Of a stretch of DNA of 64,000 bases, positions 4,224 to 27,316 are shown in pieces. The DNA is from Paludibacteraceae bacterium (GTDB lineage: Bacteria > Bacteroidota > Bacteroidia > Bacteroidales > Paludibacteraceae), in NCBI GenBank assembly GCA_017450435.1, contig JAFSTO010000056.1:124001-188000 (forward strand). Direction: 5' to 3'. The notes beneath the pieces are model-generated. The model saw only the letters and a program-made list of their open reading frames with translations, was not told the DNA's origin and ran no database searches. The position numbers and the translations under genes were made by a program. Positions within the stretch are counted from its first letter, which is position 1; every line of letters begins with the position of its first letter.

Positions 4224-5057
4224 TCACCACTCATCATTAAATAGGTCATAGTCGCTGCCTACACCTGCCGAACATTCGATTTCATGCCCTATAAACTCTC
4301 TAACGCTCTCTTTCCAATAGACTTTGCCGCCTACCATATCAATGGCATCACTCGCTCTGACGACAAAATCTTCTATCTCCTTACGCGAGTAGTCTCTATG
4401 TCCGCTCATCAAGCCTATCTTGTAGAGGTCGCAGAAATCTCTTGTCTGCATAATGCAGTCCATGCTCATTAAGGGGATAATAACAGGTTCGATACTCGCA
4501 AAGGTCTTAAAACCCATATTGTGTAGTCGTTTCATGGCGGCAATACGCTCCGTGTTGGTGCTTGCGTTTGGTTCTCTATTGTCAAGCCCCGTAAGCGTAA
4601 ATCCCCATGCAATTCTTTTCTTGACCTCATCACTTCGCCGTTCAAGGTCAAGATGCTCAATAAAGTCTGCACGCTTGGTAAGGAACTTTACGTTGATACC
4701 CTGCGAGACGGCATAAAGAGCGGCTTTCCAATGCAAGTCTCGGTTCTCTTTGAGCATCGGGTCGGTTGTGAACGTGAAGAAAAGACCTGCTTTCTGCAAT
4801 TCAGGCAGATATTTGGCAACGTTGGCTTTGAAACGGTCAAAAGCGTCTTGCTCATCTTTGAAAGCCTTTTTGAGTTCAGTGTACGGCTTGCCGAGTGTCT
4901 TTGACAAAACTCCACGCTTGCAGTAGCAGTAATCGCAGTTGTTTGAACAGCCGATGTAGAAGTTACAAGCCCATTTAGCATACTCACCAGCGCGTGAGGA
5001 TGGCATATATATTACACTGCCATTCCCTCGTTTTCCTGTTGTTTTCAATTTTTCCAT
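4224..5057 (-). CDS. Radical SAM protein, spore-photoproduct-lyase / SplB-like
   Basis: 277 residues. Cys37, Cys41 and Cys44 form the CX3CX2C iron-sulfur motif of radical SAM enzymes (CSNNCDYC), inside a segment (ACNFYIGC) typical of the COG1533 'DNA repair photolyase' group. FTTDP (about 96-100) and FLTKRADF (about 125-132) are further family marks. Known members bind a [4Fe-4S] cluster and S-adenosylmethionine; the best studied repairs spore photoproduct in DNA. The phage substrate is unknown: DNA repair or nucleic-acid modification are both possible. It is the last gene of the leftward block and overlaps the preceding endonuclease-like gene by 13 bases. The family call is firm, the substrate is not. 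Confidence 0.8.
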   Translation of the reverse strand: MEKLKTTGKRGNGSVIYMPSSRAGEYAKWACNFYIGCSNNCDYCYCKRGVLSKTLGKPYTELKKAFKDEQDAFDRFKANVAKYLPELQKAGLFFTFTTDPMLKENRDLHWKAALYAVSQGINVKFLTKRADFIEHLDLERRSDEVKKRIAWGFTLTGLDNREPNASTNTERIAAMKRLHNMGFKTFASIEPVIIPLMSMDCIMQTRDFCDLYKIGLMSGHRDYSRKEIEDFVVRASDAIDMVGGKVYWKESVREFIGHEIECSAGVGSDYDLFNDEW

Positions 5058-5712: not shown

Positions 5713-6606
5713 TTACTCAATATGTTCGGGATAGAGGTTCACATCTATTCCCCAAGTCAGACCGTTTTCTTCAAGCAGTTCGTCTAACTCTGTGAGCGAT
5801 TTCTTACCGAAATTTCGGAACTTCATCAATTCGGCACGGTGATAACGCAAAAGGTCGCGAAATGTATCAACCTCTGCCGCCCGTAACACATTAAGGCAAC
5901 GAATAGAAAGGGGGAAATCAGACAGGTGTTTTGTGAGTATCTTGCTTGTTTCCCATGTCTCTTCAGAAACAGTTATCGTCTTACCCTCTATGATTGAGTG
6001 CAGGTGCGCAATCTCATTATTCTTCTCATTTAACAACTCTTTGAGGTCGCTTATCTCGGAGTTAAGACGATAAAACGCTCCTTTTACGTGTGCGAACTTA
6101 CGCAACGCCTTGTACCATATCTGCCTTGTGCGTTCACGGGTAAGATGTCGTGTTTCACCAATCTCCTCAAAGGTCTTACCTTGCAGAGCATCCCACACAA
6201 TATCTACCTCACGCGGATAAAGGTCGAAATCGTCCATGTCTGTATATTGTTTCAACCCCTCAACGACAGCAAGCAAGGTCATCTTGATAGCCTCTATTCG
6301 TTGCGGAAACATGTTAAGGTTCTGCATACGTTCACGATATTTGGTGTGCATATCACGTAACTCGTTTGCCATTACCTGCCGCTCGTCAATAATTTTCTGA
6401 CGATATTCTTCGATGTCGGTTGTGGCTTGTTGTATGTCCCTTATAGTTGCAGCGTGCCGCTCCACATCGTTGCGGTTGGGGTAATAGAGTTTGTTTTTCT
6501 TGACGTATGACAACGTTCCCGCCTTGCAAAGGTTTCTGATGGTCTGTGCCGTAACACCGATTAAAAGAGCCGCATCAGCAGCCGATATGTACTTTTCTTT
6601 ACTCAT
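5713..6606 (-). CDS. Hybrid transcription regulator: MerR-like HTH, sigma-region-4-like and RNAP alpha-CTD-like domains
   Basis: 297 residues from the ATG at 6606; an alternative ATG lies two codons upstream at 6612. In 299-residue numbering: residues 9-50 are a MerR/excisionase-type HTH (ISAADAALLIGVTAQTIRNL); 52-100 look like coiled coil; 133-178 resemble sigma-70 region 4 (FEEIGETRHLTRERTRQI), close to the host RpoD segment in this window ([18 protein letters not shown]); 231-299 align with the C-terminal domain of RNA polymerase alpha, including FGKKSLTEL. By alignment with E. coli alpha, the UP-element contacts R265, N268, K298 and S299 correspond to R238, N241, K271 and S272 here, all kept. 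No catalytic RNAP domain is present. Likely role: phage regulator that docks on or mimics host polymerase. Upstream gene: the methyltransferase, whose stop overlaps the start. Confidence 0.75.
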   Translation of the reverse strand: MSKEKYISAADAALLIGVTAQTIRNLCKAGTLSYVKKNKLYYPNRNDVERHAATIRDIQQATTDIEEYRQKIIDERQVMANELRDMHTKYRERMQNLNMFPQRIEAIKMTLLAVVEGLKQYTDMDDFDLYPREVDIVWDALQGKTFEEIGETRHLTRERTRQIWYKALRKFAHVKGAFYRLNSEISDLKELLNEKNNEIAHLHSIIEGKTITVSEETWETSKILTKHLSDFPLSIRCLNVLRAAEVDTFRDLLRYHRAELMKFRNFGKKSLTELDELLEENGLTWGIDVNLYPEHIE

Positions 6607-6608
6607 AA

Positions 6609-7322
6609 TCAAAACATTTTAGTTTGTTGTAGGCACTCTTTATAAAATCTTTTCTCCTGCATAGAATAATACTGCTCATCTATTTCGCAGCCCACAAAAT
6701 CAAACCCCAGTTCGTATGCTGCTATGCGACTGCTACCGCTACCGAGGTGAGAATCGAAAATCTTATCTCCCTCTTTGGCATAGTTACGCAGTAGCCAAGC
6801 ATATAGAGCAACGGGCTTTTGGCATGGGTGATAGCGTTTCTCGTTGAGTTTCTTGTTTCCTTGCTGACACATAGCGTCCTGTACGCGGCGACTGCAAGTG
6901 CGTCCCTGTATCATACCGCTCCACATAAAGCGCACGATGTCGGTACGTGTATCAAAAGACTGGTAGGCAATCTCGCAACCGTACTGGTCGCTATCGCCGT
7001 TCATCTTATCCCATACAATCATTCCGCCACGCAGACCGAAGTAGTTTGCGCCGAAGATGATTTGGTTCTTACTCACGCGGAATAACTGCTCAAAATACTC
7101 CGGCTGCGGTTGTATGTCCCAGTCTTTCTTACCGTAGTTAGGAGCGTCCACGTGCAGCCATGAGCCGTTTTTCTGCTTGCACATATCGGGTTTGACGGAG
7201 GGCTTGTCGCCGCCTATGCCGTATGGTGGGTCGCAGATAGCGAGGTCAAAGAACTTATCGGGGAGTGTCTGCATATACTCCACGCAGTCCTGCTTATATA
7301 CTATGCTCTGTGGATTGACCAT
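6609..7322 (-). CDS. Orphan DNA adenine (N6) or N4-cytosine methyltransferase
   Basis: 237 residues. DPPY at residues 31-34 is the catalytic motif IV of amino-methyltransferases; the AdoMet-binding motif (FDSHLGSGSS) comes near the C-terminus (about 193-202). This order, motif IV before motif I, marks the beta class (N6_N4_Mtase fold). No restriction endonuclease gene is adjacent, so it is an orphan phage methylase, probably protecting phage DNA from host restriction or marking it. The target sequence cannot be read from the protein. It lies within the leftward block, with the hybrid regulator immediately downstream. Confidence 0.88.
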   Translation of the reverse strand: MVNPQSIVYKQDCVEYMQTLPDKFFDLAICDPPYGIGGDKPSVKPDMCKQKNGSWLHVDAPNYGKKDWDIQPQPEYFEQLFRVSKNQIIFGANYFGLRGGMIVWDKMNGDSDQYGCEIAYQSFDTRTDIVRFMWSGMIQGRTCSRRVQDAMCQQGNKKLNEKRYHPCQKPVALYAWLLRNYAKEGDKIFDSHLGSGSSRIAAYELGFDFVGCEIDEQYYSMQEKRFYKECLQQTKMF

Positions 7323-11869: not shown

Positions 11870-11902
11870 GCAAAGGTAATACTTATTTTTGAAATGTGCA
11901 AA
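11870..11902 (-). promoter_or_regulatory. Leftward promoter of the early/modification block
   Basis: Minus strand: TACCTTTG at 11878-11871 with TTTG at 11902-11899, spacer 20 bases. This is a good match to the Bacteroidetes primary-sigma promoter and lies about 43 bases before the ATG at 11828. It probably drives the whole 7.6-kb leftward gene array. Confidence 0.72.
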
Positions 11903-12128
11903 TTTTTAGATAACTTTTTTATAAAAATTTTTTAAGTGAAATCACAAAACGCTATAAATGAGCATTGTAGAAAAATAAAAAATTAGTTTGTCTTGCTGCT
12001 ATGTACGTGCGTGCGCGTTCACTAAATTCTTATTCGGACGGTATTACCCCTCTGCAATAACACTTTCTTGTCTGTTCGCATCTATTCTTTGGGATTATTA
12101 AATATCACAAATATAAGTCGTTTCACTA

Positions 12129-17833: not shown

Positions 17834-18970
17834 ATGGCAGAGTTACAACGCATAAAAGTTTTTCAGACCGAAGCAGAGTTCTGTAATATACGTCACTCGC
17901 TGTATGTGCCAAGTACCGCGCATTGCGTAGAAACAAGCGAGGTGTTTTTTCAGTGTGAACGTAAGGCTAATATGGGTGATGTAGTGTTGTATGACAAGTT
18001 TCTTGAAGAAGAAATACTTGTATATTACACGGAGTACAACGCTACTACATACCCGCTTTCCACATATACGCCAACGGGCATTGTTGTCATTCCGCAATGG
18101 TTCTGTGGCGATGACTATGCACGTGTAGTGAGCCTTGTTAATATGTCTTGTACAACGCCTGAAACAGGAAAGGCAAGCAATAATGCAACATCTTGGGATG
18201 GCGGCTCTGACATTTACTTGGTATGGGGTGGATTTGAGAGTGAGAATTGGACTTATGCGAATATCTCGGAACTTACAGACTATGGCACAGATGGCAACCG
18301 CTACCAAATATATGTAGATAGCGGTAACAGTCCAACAGGTGGAAATGGCAGTTGGGGATACGTGCCGAGTGACAGTTATCATACGGGCTATAAGGGGAGT
18401 ACAGAAAACAATAGCAGCGATAAAACTGTTCATTGGTATAATGGTATGGGAGATGATTATAGATTGCCGAGTGCTTATACTAACCGTTTAGAGAGGAATC
18501 CTCTTTATGGTCGTGGTGCTGACGGCGATCAAAGTTCTTTCTTGTCGGACTATAACGGCAAGCAGAATACACAATATATTCTCGGCTATGAAACGAAACA
18601 ACCCAACTGGCAGACTGATGAGCAGATAGAAAATTCTTACAGAGGAGATAATTTGGGGCATTTCCCTGCCGCTCTTTGCTGCGCACGCTACCACACGGAC
18701 GGCACAGAGGCAGGCGATTGGTATCTCCCCGCAGCAGGCGAGTTAGGTTGTATTATGCCGCGTTTCGCTATCATACAAGCGGCTCTTAAGAAAGTCGCGA
18801 GCGTAAGTAGTACGGTTGCAGTTCCTCTCAGTGAGGGCTACGGCTATTGGTCGAGTTCAGAGACCAGTGAGAACGGTGCTTACTACTTGTACGCGTACAA
18901 GGGATACATGTACGGCGGCAGTAAGGGCGGCTTCAATTATGTCCGGGCGTTCCGGCTTCTGCGCATTTAA
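17834..18970 (+). CDS. DGR target protein with C-terminal variable C-type-lectin-like domain
   Basis: 378 residues. The C-terminal part resembles DUF1566 / formylglycine-generating-enzyme-like C-lectin folds: GDWYLPAAGELG, then YWSSSE and a terminal VRAFRLLRI. The last 51 codons (328-378, bases 18815-18968) are the variable repeat of the DGR. In it 18 codons differ from the template at adenines, giving Gly, Tyr, Ser, Thr, Ala and Phe where the template mostly encodes Asn. Likely role: displayed virion receptor-binding protein whose binding surface is diversified. The N-terminal part is probably the attachment domain. The gene is followed by the GC-rich DGR hairpin (18985-19019) and the accessory gene. 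Confidence 0.88.
   Translation: MAELQRIKVFQTEAEFCNIRHSLYVPSTAHCVETSEVFFQCERKANMGDVVLYDKFLEEEILVYYTEYNATTYPLSTYTPTGIVVIPQWFCGDDYARVVSLVNMSCTTPETGKASNNATSWDGGSDIYLVWGGFESENWTYANISELTDYGTDGNRYQIYVDSGNSPTGGNGSWGYVPSDSYHTGYKGSTENNSSDKTVHWYNGMGDDYRLPSAYTNRLERNPLYGRGADGDQSSFLSDYNGKQNTQYILGYETKQPNWQTDEQIENSYRGDNLGHFPAALCCARYHTDGTEAGDWYLPAAGELGCIMPRFAIIQAALKKVASVSSTVAVPLSEGYGYWSSSETSENGAYYLYAYKGYMYGGSKGGFNYVRAFRLLRI
18815..18968 (+). repeat. DGR variable repeat (VR)
   Basis: 154 bases aligned without gaps to the TR at 19712-19865 (offset 897). 28 positions differ: 26 where the TR has A, plus two where it has T (18901 and 18904). The last 34 bases, through CTTCTGCGCATTT, are identical and include the likely initiation-of-mutagenic-homing segment. 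The VR ends at the target gene's stop codon. Confidence 0.95.
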
Positions 18971-18984
18971 TCTTGAGCCTTAAG

Positions 18985-19019
18985 CCTTGCCGCCCAGCGT
19001 CTGTACGCGGGCGGCGAGG
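18985..19019 (+). promoter_or_regulatory. DGR target-site hairpin/cruciform
   Basis: CCTTGCCGCCC (18985-18995) pairs with GGGCGGCGAGG (19009-19019) with one G-T pair; inside, GCGT pairs with ACGC around the tetraloop CTGT, with one bulged A (18996). It starts 14 bases after the target stop codon. A hairpin with a 4-base loop just downstream of VR is known from the Bordetella phage DGR, where it boosts homing. There is no T run, and the TR has no such element. Confidence 0.8.
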
Positions 19020-19066
19020 ATAAGGAATTATATATTATTAACAACTTAAAAAGAAAGGAGAAAACC

Positions 19067-19546
19067 ATGATTGATTTGACTTCGGCTGACAAGCCGAAAA
19101 TCCGTAAAGAAAAGCCTTTTGAGGACACACTGCTGTACAAACAGACAATGGACTTCCGTGAGGCTATCAAGGGTATCTTGCAGAACATGAACGCACGTCA
19201 AGTGCCGATGTATGGTGTGCCAATGAACGATGCACTCCGTTCTGCGCTCGTCAATTACCGCCTCTGCTACTTGGAGGGCGCAAATAATTACAATGACAAA
19301 GTAGCGTTTATGAGGGCATCTTGCGAAAAATTCGCAGAAGTGGATGTCCTTGTGAACGAATGGTATGCAGTAGGAATAATAAACAAAAAGACCTATTGCC
19401 GCTTTGCTGCTATTGAGGGTGGTATATTAGAGGGGTCAAAAAGATTTTACGAGGCTATCAAGAAAAGACGAGATAACTCGGAAGATGAAATTAAAGCCCC
19501 CGAATCATCTGCAAATGGCAATGCCGAAACAAAAGAGACCGAATAA
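19067..19546 (+). CDS. avd: DGR accessory protein, Avd-like
   Basis: 159 residues, mostly helical (FEDTLLYKQTMDFREAIKGI; VNYRLCYLEGANNYNDKVAF; FAEVDVLVNEWYAVGII; AIEGGILEGSKRFYEAIKKR), with a charged unstructured tail from about residue 137. Length, four-helix pattern and position between VR and TR fit the accessory variability determinant family. Avd forms a pentameric barrel that binds the RT and template RNA during mutagenic cDNA synthesis. AAAGGAG at 19054-19060 stands 6 bases before the ATG. Confidence 0.82.
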   Translation: MIDLTSADKPKIRKEKPFEDTLLYKQTMDFREAIKGILQNMNARQVPMYGVPMNDALRSALVNYRLCYLEGANNYNDKVAFMRASCEKFAEVDVLVNEWYAVGIINKKTYCRFAAIEGGILEGSKRFYEAIKKRRDNSEDEIKAPESSANGNAETKETE

Positions 19547-19563
19547 TAACCCTTAAAACTTAA

Positions 19564-19899
19564 AGAAGATATGCGATTACCCGTACAATGCTACTATCTT
19601 GCATAAAGAAATAGCGTAACGGTTAGGAGTCAAGATTAAATGGGTGGCACACTCCGCAAGGAGTAATGGCAGCATAAGTATAAGATATGTCTGAAAGATG
19701 CCACAATGACTGTTGCAGTTCCTCTCAATGAGAACAACAACTATTGGTCGAGTTCAGAGAACAGTGAGAACAATGCTTACAACTTGAACACGAACAATGG
19801 TAACATGAACAACAACAATAAGAACAACAACAATTATGTCCGGGCGTTCCGGCTTCTGCGCATTTTGTATCACTCCTATTTGCAAATCGCATATCTTCT
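19564..19899 (+). ncRNA. DGR template RNA region bracketed by inverted repeats
   Basis: AGAAGATATGCGATT (19564-19578) is a perfect inverted copy of AATCGCATATCTTCT (19885-19899). Inside it, TAGGAGT (19624-19630) pairs with ACTCCTA (19872-19878). A local hairpin ACTCC-GCAA-GGAGT (19651-19664) has a GNRA loop. The TR (19712-19865) lies in the resulting closed loop. The 3' arm ends 11 bases before the RT start codon, so the fold could also affect RT translation. No protein gene is supported here. Confidence 0.7.
19712..19865 (+). repeat. DGR template repeat (TR)
   Basis: 154 bases, gapless match to the VR. Read in the VR frame it has 20 AAY (Asn) codons among 51, the usual design for adenine-directed mutagenesis: AAY codons with both adenines randomised give 15 amino acids and no stop. 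It sits between avd and the RT gene, on the same strand. It is not a gene, although it is open in frame. Confidence 0.95.
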
Positions 19900-19910
19900 A
19901 TTTATGAAAT

Positions 19911-21191
19911 ATGTTAGTAGAGTATGAAGAACTCTATGATGCCTATATTGACTGTCGAAAGCGCAAGCGTAGTTCCGCTAATTGCCAACAGTTTGAGATT
20001 GATGCAACTCGCAAGTTGTGGCAGTTGTGGAAAGACCTCAATAACGGCTCATATACAATAGGTAGGTCTATCGCCTTTATAGTTCACCACCCGAAAGACC
20101 GCGAGGTGTTTGCGGCTGATTTCAGAGATAGAATTGTTCATCATCTGATAATTCGGAGAATTGAAAAATTGCTTGAAGAAGAGTTTATCGAGGATTCGTA
20201 TTCGTGTCGTAAGGGCAAGGGTACTCTTTATGGTATAGAACGCTGCGAAATGTATATGCGAGAAGTGAGTGAAAACTACACAAAGAAAGCATATATACTT
20301 AAAGGAGATTTTAAGAGTTTCTTTATGCGCATCAATAAACCGAAGATGTATCAAGCCATTTGTGATTTGCTCGACAAACGAGGTAACTTTGACGAGGAGA
20401 GCAAAACCTTTATGAAACATGTGATACGGCTCATCGTATTCAACAGACCGCAAGACAACTGCATACGCAAACAGCCTAAATCTGCGTGGAAATGTCTGCC
20501 GAAAGATAAAAGTCTGTTCAGTTGTGAGGCGGATTATGGAGTTCCTATCGGCAACTTGACAAGCCAGATATTCGCCAACTTGTTTATGAGTGCTTTTGAC
20601 CATTGGATAAAAGATACTCTTGGGATAAAGGAGTACGGAAGATATGTTGATGACTTTTATATTGTAATGATATATTCGCAAGTGCTTGTCGCTCTAATAC
20701 CGCAAATAAGAAAGTTCCTATCTGACTATGGCGTAACTCTGCACCCGCACAAAGTGTCTATTCAAGAGGTAGAAAAGGGTATTCAGTTTTTGGGTCAGGT
20801 GATAAAGCCTTATGGCAGATTGGTAGCACGTAAAACGATAGGAACTCTTTACACAAAATTACAGACCTTTGACGACTTCATTGAATGGCACAAAATACAT
20901 GGTGAAAGGTTGTGCAAGGAAGATATAGAGTATATCGTAAGCAGTATAAATTCTTACTACGGCTATTTCAGGCAAAGCAAGAGTTATCGACTGCGTAAGA
21001 AAATAGCACAATCGGAACTTATAAAGCCGATACTTGAATATGCCACATTTGATACAAACTATACCAAAATTATTAAACTGAAGAAAGATGAAAAAGAAAG
21101 TAACAATATCGAGGCTTTTAGCCCGACTGGTCATGTTCGCTATTCTCGGCGTAGCCATCGGAGGGTGCAAGACAACAAAGCCGTTGGTTAG
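19911..21191 (+). CDS. DGR reverse transcriptase
   Basis: 426 residues from the ATG at 19911. RT motifs: DFKSFF with the first catalytic Asp at 133, VPIGNLTSQIFANL (211-224) carrying the GxxxSQ form typical of DGR enzymes, YVDD (245-248), and LGQVIKPYGR (294-303). It copies TR RNA into cDNA with errors at adenines, which replaces the VR. The final 35 codons lie in the start of the next gene (21088) in another frame and have odd composition, so the functional core is about 390 residues. There is a 45-base gap between TR and the start codon. All catalytic residues are present, so the enzyme should be active. Confidence 0.95.
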   Translation: MLVEYEELYDAYIDCRKRKRSSANCQQFEIDATRKLWQLWKDLNNGSYTIGRSIAFIVHHPKDREVFAADFRDRIVHHLIIRRIEKLLEEEFIEDSYSCRKGKGTLYGIERCEMYMREVSENYTKKAYILKGDFKSFFMRINKPKMYQAICDLLDKRGNFDEESKTFMKHVIRLIVFNRPQDNCIRKQPKSAWKCLPKDKSLFSCEADYGVPIGNLTSQIFANLFMSAFDHWIKDTLGIKEYGRYVDDFYIVMIYSQVLVALIPQIRKFLSDYGVTLHPHKVSIQEVEKGIQFLGQVIKPYGRLVARKTIGTLYTKLQTFDDFIEWHKIHGERLCKEDIEYIVSSINSYYGYFRQSKSYRLRKKIAQSELIKPILEYATFDTNYTKIIKLKKDEKESNNIEAFSPTGHVRYSRRSHRRVQDNKAVG

Positions 21192-26455: not shown

Positions 26456-27316
26456 ATGCGACAGCTAAAAATCACTAAATCCATTACTAATCGTGAGAGT
26501 GCCTCGCTTGACAAATATCTTCAGGAGATAGGTCGCGAAGACCTTATTTCCGTTGAAGAGGAGGTTGAGCTTGCAGGGCGAATACGTAATGGTGACCAGA
26601 AAGCGCTGGAGAAACTGACACGTGCTAACCTCCGTTTCGTTGTATCTGTTGCCAAGCAGTATCAGAATCAAGGGTTAAGTCTGCCCGACCTTATCAACGA
26701 AGGCAACCTCGGTCTGATAAAAGCAGCAGAGAAGTTCGACGAGACACGTGGTTTCAAGTTCATTTCTTATGCGGTATGGTGGATTAGGCAAAGTATTCTA
26801 CAGGCTCTTGCTGAGCAGAGTCGTATAGTGCGTCTGCCGCTTAATCAGGTCGGTTCGCTCAACAAGATAACCAAGGCGTACTCGCGTTTCGAGCAGGAGT
26901 TTGAACGTAAGCCTTCGGCTGAGGAATTGGCTGAGCGTGTGGATTTGCCGGTAGATAAGATTGCTGATACGCTGAAGATGTCCGGACGTCAGATTTCCGT
27001 TGATGCCCCATTCGTAGAGGGTGAGGATAATTCATTGCTCGATGTTATGCCAAACGACGATTCGCCAAACGCAGACCGCGGTCTGATTAACGAGTCGCTT
27101 TCGAAGGAGATTGACCGTGCCTTGGCTACACTGACCCCGCGTGAGGCAGATATCATCCGTAAGTTCTTCGGAATAGGGGTACCGGAAAAGACTCTGGAAG
27201 AGATAGGCGAAGAGTTGCACCTCACGCGTGAGCGCGTGCGCCAGATAAAAGAGAAGGCAATCAAACGCCTTCGTGCCAACCAGCGAAGCCGTGTGCTGAA
27301 GACCTACCTCGGATAA
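26456..27316 (+). CDS. rpoD: Primary RNA polymerase sigma factor RpoD
   Basis: 286 residues, the short Bacteroidetes form that lacks the region 1.1 extension. Region 2 ([51 protein letters not shown]) recognises the TAnnTTTG element; region 3 and region 4 ([20 protein letters not shown]) follow. It is the vegetative sigma factor that directs RNA polymerase to housekeeping promoters. First intact host gene to the right of the prophage. Its region 4 is a useful reference for the phage hybrid protein at 5713-6606. Confidence 0.97.

Follow-up and report, generated by a model that had tools for sequence, protein, structure and literature searches.

A prophage protein fusing a winged helix–turn–helix head to sigma-70 region 4-like and RNA polymerase alpha-CTD-like domains, a candidate accessory transcription regulator

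Several phages are known to interfere with the parts of host RNA polymerase (RNAP) that read promoters. Phage T4 modifies Arg265 of the alpha subunit through Alt and ModA and appropriates sigma through AsiA and MotA, according to the sections of the T4 account drawn on here (PMC2988021), and jumbo phages encode minimal sigma factors with a single helix–turn–helix (HTH), as well as gp33 (PMC7824862, main text). Phages also encode small proteins with the annotation 'RNA polymerase alpha subunit, C-terminal', among them A0A6J5M7I6, A0A2P1JY10 of Rhodococcus phage Finch and a protein of Bacillus phage Goe8. Here, we analyse a 297-amino-acid (297-aa) protein that resembles each of these systems in part. 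The two promoter-reading surfaces targeted are the same as in T4, namely the alpha C-terminal domain (alpha-CTD) and sigma region 4 (sigma-4); in contrast to T4, which in those sections (PMC2988021) modifies or binds the host domains, the phage here has its own copies of both, fused in one chain. Like the jumbo-phage single-HTH sigma factors and gp33, the protein provides a sigma-4-like HTH that stands alone in a phage, and the terms 'CTD', 'region 4' and 'RpoA' are absent from the main text of that study (PMC7824862). With the small annotated proteins it shares a phage-borne alpha-CTD outside RpoA (for A0A6J5M7I6 and the Finch protein, by annotation alone); unlike it, the Goe8 protein has no sigma-4 or HTH_17 match. 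The earlier note on this DNA knew of no described family with this domain order, and none was found among the titles and abstract openings given by a full-text search that covered papers other than bioRxiv preprints and most subscription titles.

The gene lies in a 64,000-nucleotide stretch of the source genome, that of a gut bacterium (G000:C41:124001-188000; hereafter the window, to which coordinates refer unless a contig or locus is given). An open reading frame (ORF) on the minus strand at 5713-6612 has an ATG at 6606 that gives 297 aa, in agreement with a gene at 5713..6606 (minus strand), and its product is arranged as winged HTH, possible coil, sigma-4-like HTH, possible coil and alpha-CTD. 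Directly upstream of it, in the same series of minus-strand genes, is a DNA methylase gene (Pfam N6_N4_Mtase; 6609..7322, minus strand); further downstream is a gene for a radical-SAM protein (Pfam; 4224..5057, minus strand), a 51% relative of which is present in a sister phage (G561) that is without the 297-aa protein gene. Terminase-, portal-, capsid- and tape-measure-like ORFs are located upstream on the same contig and a tyrosine-recombinase-like ORF adjoins rpoD (RpoD-like ORF at 26456-27316, plus strand), the phage-structural and recombinase names being read from the sequence by eye. The prophage stretch is also collinear with phage regions of two other genomes. Together, these phage-like ORFs and the collinearity bear out the earlier description of a phage protein and, on the evidence of its sequence surroundings, the gene is a prophage gene.

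A profile search recovered HTH_17, Sigma70_r4 and RNA_pol_A_CTD in that order, all above their Pfam cut-offs, confirming that three modules are joined in one chain. In the numbering of a 299-aa version of the protein (all other residue positions use 297-aa numbering), HTH_17 covers 8-54 (30.5 bits, cut-off 27, E 4.4e-7), Sigma70_r4 (PF04545) covers 143-172 (25.1 bits, cut-off 24.1, E 1.2e-5) and RNA_pol_A_CTD covers 220-282 (59.1 bits, cut-off 23.8, E 3.5e-16); the Sigma70_r4 match, the weakest of the three, spans profile positions 18-47 of 50. The winged-HTH head (6451..6591, minus strand; residues 6-52), assigned by Pfam and by the model, has predicted helices at 9-16 and 20-28 and strands at 34-37 and 40-44. 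It is followed by a long modelled helix that may form a coiled coil (6313..6453, minus strand; residues 52-98), the sigma-70 region 4-like HTH (6097..6186, minus strand; residues 141-170, within an entire fold of about 101-175), a second modelled helix and possible coiled coil (5989..6096, minus strand; residues 171-206) and the alpha-CTD-like domain (5767..5955, minus strand; residues 218-280).

The head had been described as MerR-like, which stands as far as the winged HTH is concerned; by Pfam, however, it is an HTH_17 domain and not a member of the MerR family, neither MerR nor MerR_1 matching the protein to E 10, and some of its relatives have MerR matches below the cut-off. MerR family regulators carry a C-terminal effector domain behind a dimerization helix, and these effector domains vary; in the 297-aa protein, a long helix behind the head is followed by sigma-4 and alpha-CTD. 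In PHROGs, the head best matches excisionases, a terminase small subunit and a MerR-like regulator, which would suit an architectural or excisionase-like protein whose HTH_17 head serves excision or packaging and whose other modules only add DNA affinity. We consider such a role very improbable, because a function outside transcription would hardly account for two RNAP-derived modules in the same chain, and the gene is not beside the integrase-like ORF.

The best PDB match of the protein is a 330-aa RNAP alpha subunit (9n9p_A, E 1.2e-19), with region 4 of RpoD/SigA lower down. Structure prediction of the protein alone strongly supports the alpha-CTD fold, and the modelled domain fits 9zum and 3n97, the latter comprising alpha-CTD plus sigma-4 on UP/-35 DNA; support from the models for the sigma-4 fold is moderate, with Foldseek matches backing a sigma-70 region 4 HTH. 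Residues R236, N239, N265, G267, K269, S270 and E273 are equivalent to R265, N268, N294, G296, K298, S299 and E302 of Escherichia coli alpha, so that the four equivalents named by the earlier note (R265, N268, K298 and S299) are all present. The domain thus shares both fold and DNA-contact residues with RpoA and is 57% identical over its length to the RpoA that this genome encodes; the window clade (three rows) adjoins one RpoA of its own genus (support 82/71) in a tree of weak resolution. In contrast to RpoA, no alpha-NTD family is found among Pfam matches to E 10, matches to NCBIfam RpoA models are restricted to residue 187 onward and the place of the alpha-NTD in the model is taken by the HTH, helices and sigma-4; the protein should therefore not be built into polymerase in the way that RpoA is, and the claim that it has no catalytic RNAP part holds. 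With region 4 of RpoD/SigA it shares the HTH fold, and the recognition helix of the window copy (HLTRERTRQI) equals that of the host RpoD in the window except for one residue in ten, the likeness being as claimed. Unlike RpoD/SigA, the protein has no Pfam match to E 10 for sigma-70 region 2, which serves -10 recognition and core binding, has four fewer residues than host RpoD between two helices, and belongs to a family in which the -35 contacts are variable.

The protein is under purifying selection, to judge from comparison with an 88% identical protein, L080 (dN/dS 0.152 overall, from one pair; 0.113 for the head, 0.164 for sigma-4 and 0.255 for the alpha-CTD). Residue conservation was counted over 19 related, non-independent rows, among which are a cluster of three near-copies and other close pairs. 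Of the alpha-CTD equivalents, N294 is kept in 19/19, R265, G296 and S299 each in 18/19, and N268 and K298 each in 16/19, N268 being missing in L085, L005 and L033 and K298 in L086, L048 and L002. Of the sigma-4 equivalents, Q589 is kept in 18/19, R586 in 17/19, R588 in 14/19 and R584 and E585 each in 10/19. These alignments indicate that the best-kept surface is the DNA-contact surface of the alpha-CTD, and that the DNA contacts of sigma-4 are kept only partly. The window copy and L080 have all five sigma-4 recognition residues of host RpoD; in L084, the next-closest homologue, four of the five are changed and one is kept.

One relative bears on the independence of the head. Over bases 1-200 of its gene, L028 is 70-73% identical to five relatives (shuffled control mean 60, maximum 65), as against 82-90% over the 100 bases upstream and 96-100% over bases 200-650. 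Its head has a dS of 1.5-1.8, and dS for sigma-4 and alpha-CTD is 0-0.08 with four of the five relatives and 0.03 and 0.34, respectively, with the fifth, L004, whose final part of the alpha-CTD shows 82-83% identity compared with 98-100% among the other relatives. Because the head has diverged while both the upstream 100 bases and bases 200-650 stay close, the sequences show exchange of the head alone in L028.

We propose, with a probability of about one half, that the 297-aa protein is an accessory phage transcription regulator in which sigma-4 and alpha-CTD add promoter contacts beside a site chosen by the head. The interchangeable winged HTH would select the target site, the sigma-4-like HTH and the alpha-CTD would contribute promoter-type contacts adjacent to it (to a -33/-35 element and to A-tract/UP DNA, respectively) and the two long helices would hold the modules, probably forming a dimer, such that the protein would in effect duplicate, without the polymerase, the apparatus that reads the upstream part of promoters. 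From a site upstream of a promoter, it could stabilize host RNAP there and so act as an activator. DNA binding, dimerization and action at promoters are all steps that we infer: binding to DNA is supported by the fold and by the contacts of the alpha-CTD, and activation or competition would be a further step from there. Both activities suggested by the earlier note, recruiting host RNAP and blocking host promoters, are plausible. We lean towards the activator or recruiter, because the head gives a choice of site and was exchanged alone, and because the detached sigma-4/alpha-CTD pair would sit where the holoenzyme's own pair does, with 3n97 as a precedent. No target site was found for the protein, which counts against a promoter regulator.

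Competition for host-type -33/UP DNA is a serious rival, although we regard it as rather unlikely. If the -33 and UP DNA recognized by its sigma-4 and alpha-CTD is that used by the host holoenzyme, the protein could be a competitor or decoy that occupies host or resident-prophage promoters and shuts them off, or that titrates activators using the alpha-CTD. The identity of all five sigma-4 recognition residues to host RpoD in the window copy, the nearness of the alpha-CTD to the RpoA of its own genus and the freedom of this domain from an NTD that would anchor it in polymerase all favour competition; the presence of an HTH head and its exchange, however, suggest particular targets rather than global competition, and the host-like contacts are largely changed in L084.

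Of 178 genomes in the genus, 11 match the head-to-sigma-4 profile over its full length, and all 11 have the alpha-CTD; in 77 others the match is confined to the sigma-4 stretch or its vicinity. Among 393 genomes drawn evenly from the taxonomic order, the source genome and G173 gave full matches and 28 gave partial ones. Scanning genome contigs for relatives yielded 10 loci, four from Paludibacteraceae (rumen, reticulum and omasum samples) and six from uncultured Bacteroidales, and two unannotated phage records from human faeces encode relatives with 28-32% identity over 93-96% of the query. All three domains exceed Pfam cut-offs in five of the nine HTH-type members scanned (the window protein, L085, L030, L029 and L048), and the alpha-CTD does so in all nine; sigma-4 is below its cut-off in L086, L005, L004 and L084, as is HTH_17 in L004 and L084. 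In IMG/VR, 19 loci match the family profile: four are of the HTH_17 type (L028, L029, L030 and L038), six have sigma-4 and alpha-CTD with another N terminus (L031, L032, L033, L034, L035 and L041) and nine have the alpha-CTD only by the profiles used (L036 is cut by a contig end). N-terminal to sigma-4 is a Cro/C1 HTH in L041 and a homeodomain-like HTH in L035, and this joining of sigma-4 and alpha-CTD to various heads in other phages indicates that the pairing recurs.

As the relatives keep the domain layout, the family is real and represents an apparently undescribed type of phage gene regulator. More tentatively, and with considerable doubt, we suggest that Bacteroidota phages, and separately other phages, have built a polymerase-free promoter-marking factor from host sigma-4 and alpha-CTD with an exchangeable head. 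If true, host polymerase could be re-aimed or blocked in modular fashion through upstream promoter contacts planted at chosen sites. Phage proteins that modify or bind the alpha-CTD and sigma-4 of the host are already known. A family with its own fused copies of both, led by a swappable head, would meet the same need in a new way, and in Bacteroidota it would lend itself naturally to redirecting transcription. It also makes testable whether sigma-4 and alpha-CTD detached from polymerase can direct promoter choice.

Family genes and other alpha-CTD genes are also found in different settings. In another phage type (L116, L023 and L109), an S24-peptidase-like (UmuD/LexA-like) gene comes after the family gene, and in these and L112 a UmuC-like polymerase gene also follows, all names being read from the sequence. 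Records in a plasmid collection (from C. difficile, Streptomyces and others) contain genes with an alpha-CTD whose annotation is RNA polymerase subunit alpha; as some of these records are chromosome-sized, only part can be true plasmid genes.

Promoters of the Bacteroidota type consist of TTG, a spacer and TAnnTTTG. A scan of the prophage for such promoters revealed sites sharing a near-identical upstream block: at five sites, the box AAAAAGTTATC is directly upstream of the -33 element. One of them (TTTG ... TAnnTTTG; 11871..11918, minus strand, with the box pattern at 11898-11918) heads the minus-strand gene run that includes the 297-aa protein gene, and the others are at G000:C41:81927, 93591, 99934 and 107266. 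G000 contains the exact pattern AAAAGTTATNNRAWWATTTGC five times, always in the prophage, G475 contains it twice and G529 six times, the phages of the latter two encoding 88% and 59% identical versions of the protein, respectively; the pattern is absent from eight genomes with only distant homologues. GTTAT stands at the fixed place in 5/18, 3/18 and 7/16 promoter-like sites of the three phage regions (anywhere upstream, 8, 7 and 7) and in 0/97 sites in 360,502 bases treated as host DNA (5/97 when any position within 40 bases upstream is counted), a set in which C41:1-60000 is assumed to be host and five stretches were picked for weak promoter match, which works against the contrast. Fisher P values for the fixed place are 5.6e-5, 0.0033 and 3.0e-7, which are optimistic as the copies are partly duplicates.

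This distribution, the absence of GTTAT at that place from host sites and the box heading the operon of the gene itself would be consistent with the 297-aa protein reading AAAAAGTTATC as master activator of a phage regulon that includes its own operon. The sister phage in G561 makes this highly improbable. Among the 178 genus genomes, G561 is the only further one with the pattern, at five sites in one phage and one elsewhere (C13), and its phage is of the same type with the same box layout, keeping a Cro/C1-type regulator (57%), a second alpha-CTD protein (51%) and the neighbour of the latter (60%). The HTH-sigma4-alphaCTD gene was not found there: tblastn against the phage gives only the alpha-CTD of the second protein, the genome has no head-to-sigma-4 profile match at E 1e-8, and the phage region has no N in 120 kb. 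As this phage keeps its boxes without the gene, the 297-aa protein is, by sequence comparison, not required for the box, and absence from one of the four phages of this type implies that the gene is not essential to them. The pattern is also present in 60 IMG/VR stretches, 10 of them with a -7 element behind it, so the box extends beyond this phage type; no relative of the 297-aa protein is encoded in any of the 60 within the stretch examined. The sites are predicted to be a phage promoter class that extends to the sister phages of G475, G529 and G561, for which the Cro/C1-type regulator and the second alpha-CTD protein, present in all four boxed phages, would be better candidate readers; in G529, however, a stop interrupts the matched stretch of the Cro/C1-type regulator.

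The second alpha-CTD protein of the prophage (154 aa; C41:98711-99175, equivalent to L021:14711-15175; PF03118, 40.9 bits, mid-protein) is kept in four phages, having lost the K298 equivalent in 4/4 and the N268 equivalent in 3/4, losses that make binding to UP DNA less likely for it. Its neighbour belongs to a family of about 245 aa with the motif FxPHxxxRYxxR (L021:15172-15909, L107:7238-8002, L013:8182-8907 and L286:1209-1943), for which the libraries searched gave no relatives and no recognised family. In all five phage loci where it is found, a member abuts or overlaps an alpha-CTD protein, which is the second protein in the phages of G000, G475 and G561 and the HTH-sigma4-alphaCTD protein in G529 and L013/L029. 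Such adjacency could mean that alpha-CTD proteins work with this family as a two-gene module, for example as DNA-binding partner and autoregulator of a small effector. For the window gene we find this hard to credit, as the methylase occupies the corresponding place beside it and the searches made assign the neighbour to no recognised family.

The window also contains a diversity-generating retroelement (17834-21191), with a reverse-transcriptase-like ORF at 19911-21191, a template copy at 19709-19865 and a variable copy at 18812-18968 at the end of an ORF, in which the template has A at 26 of 29 mismatches.
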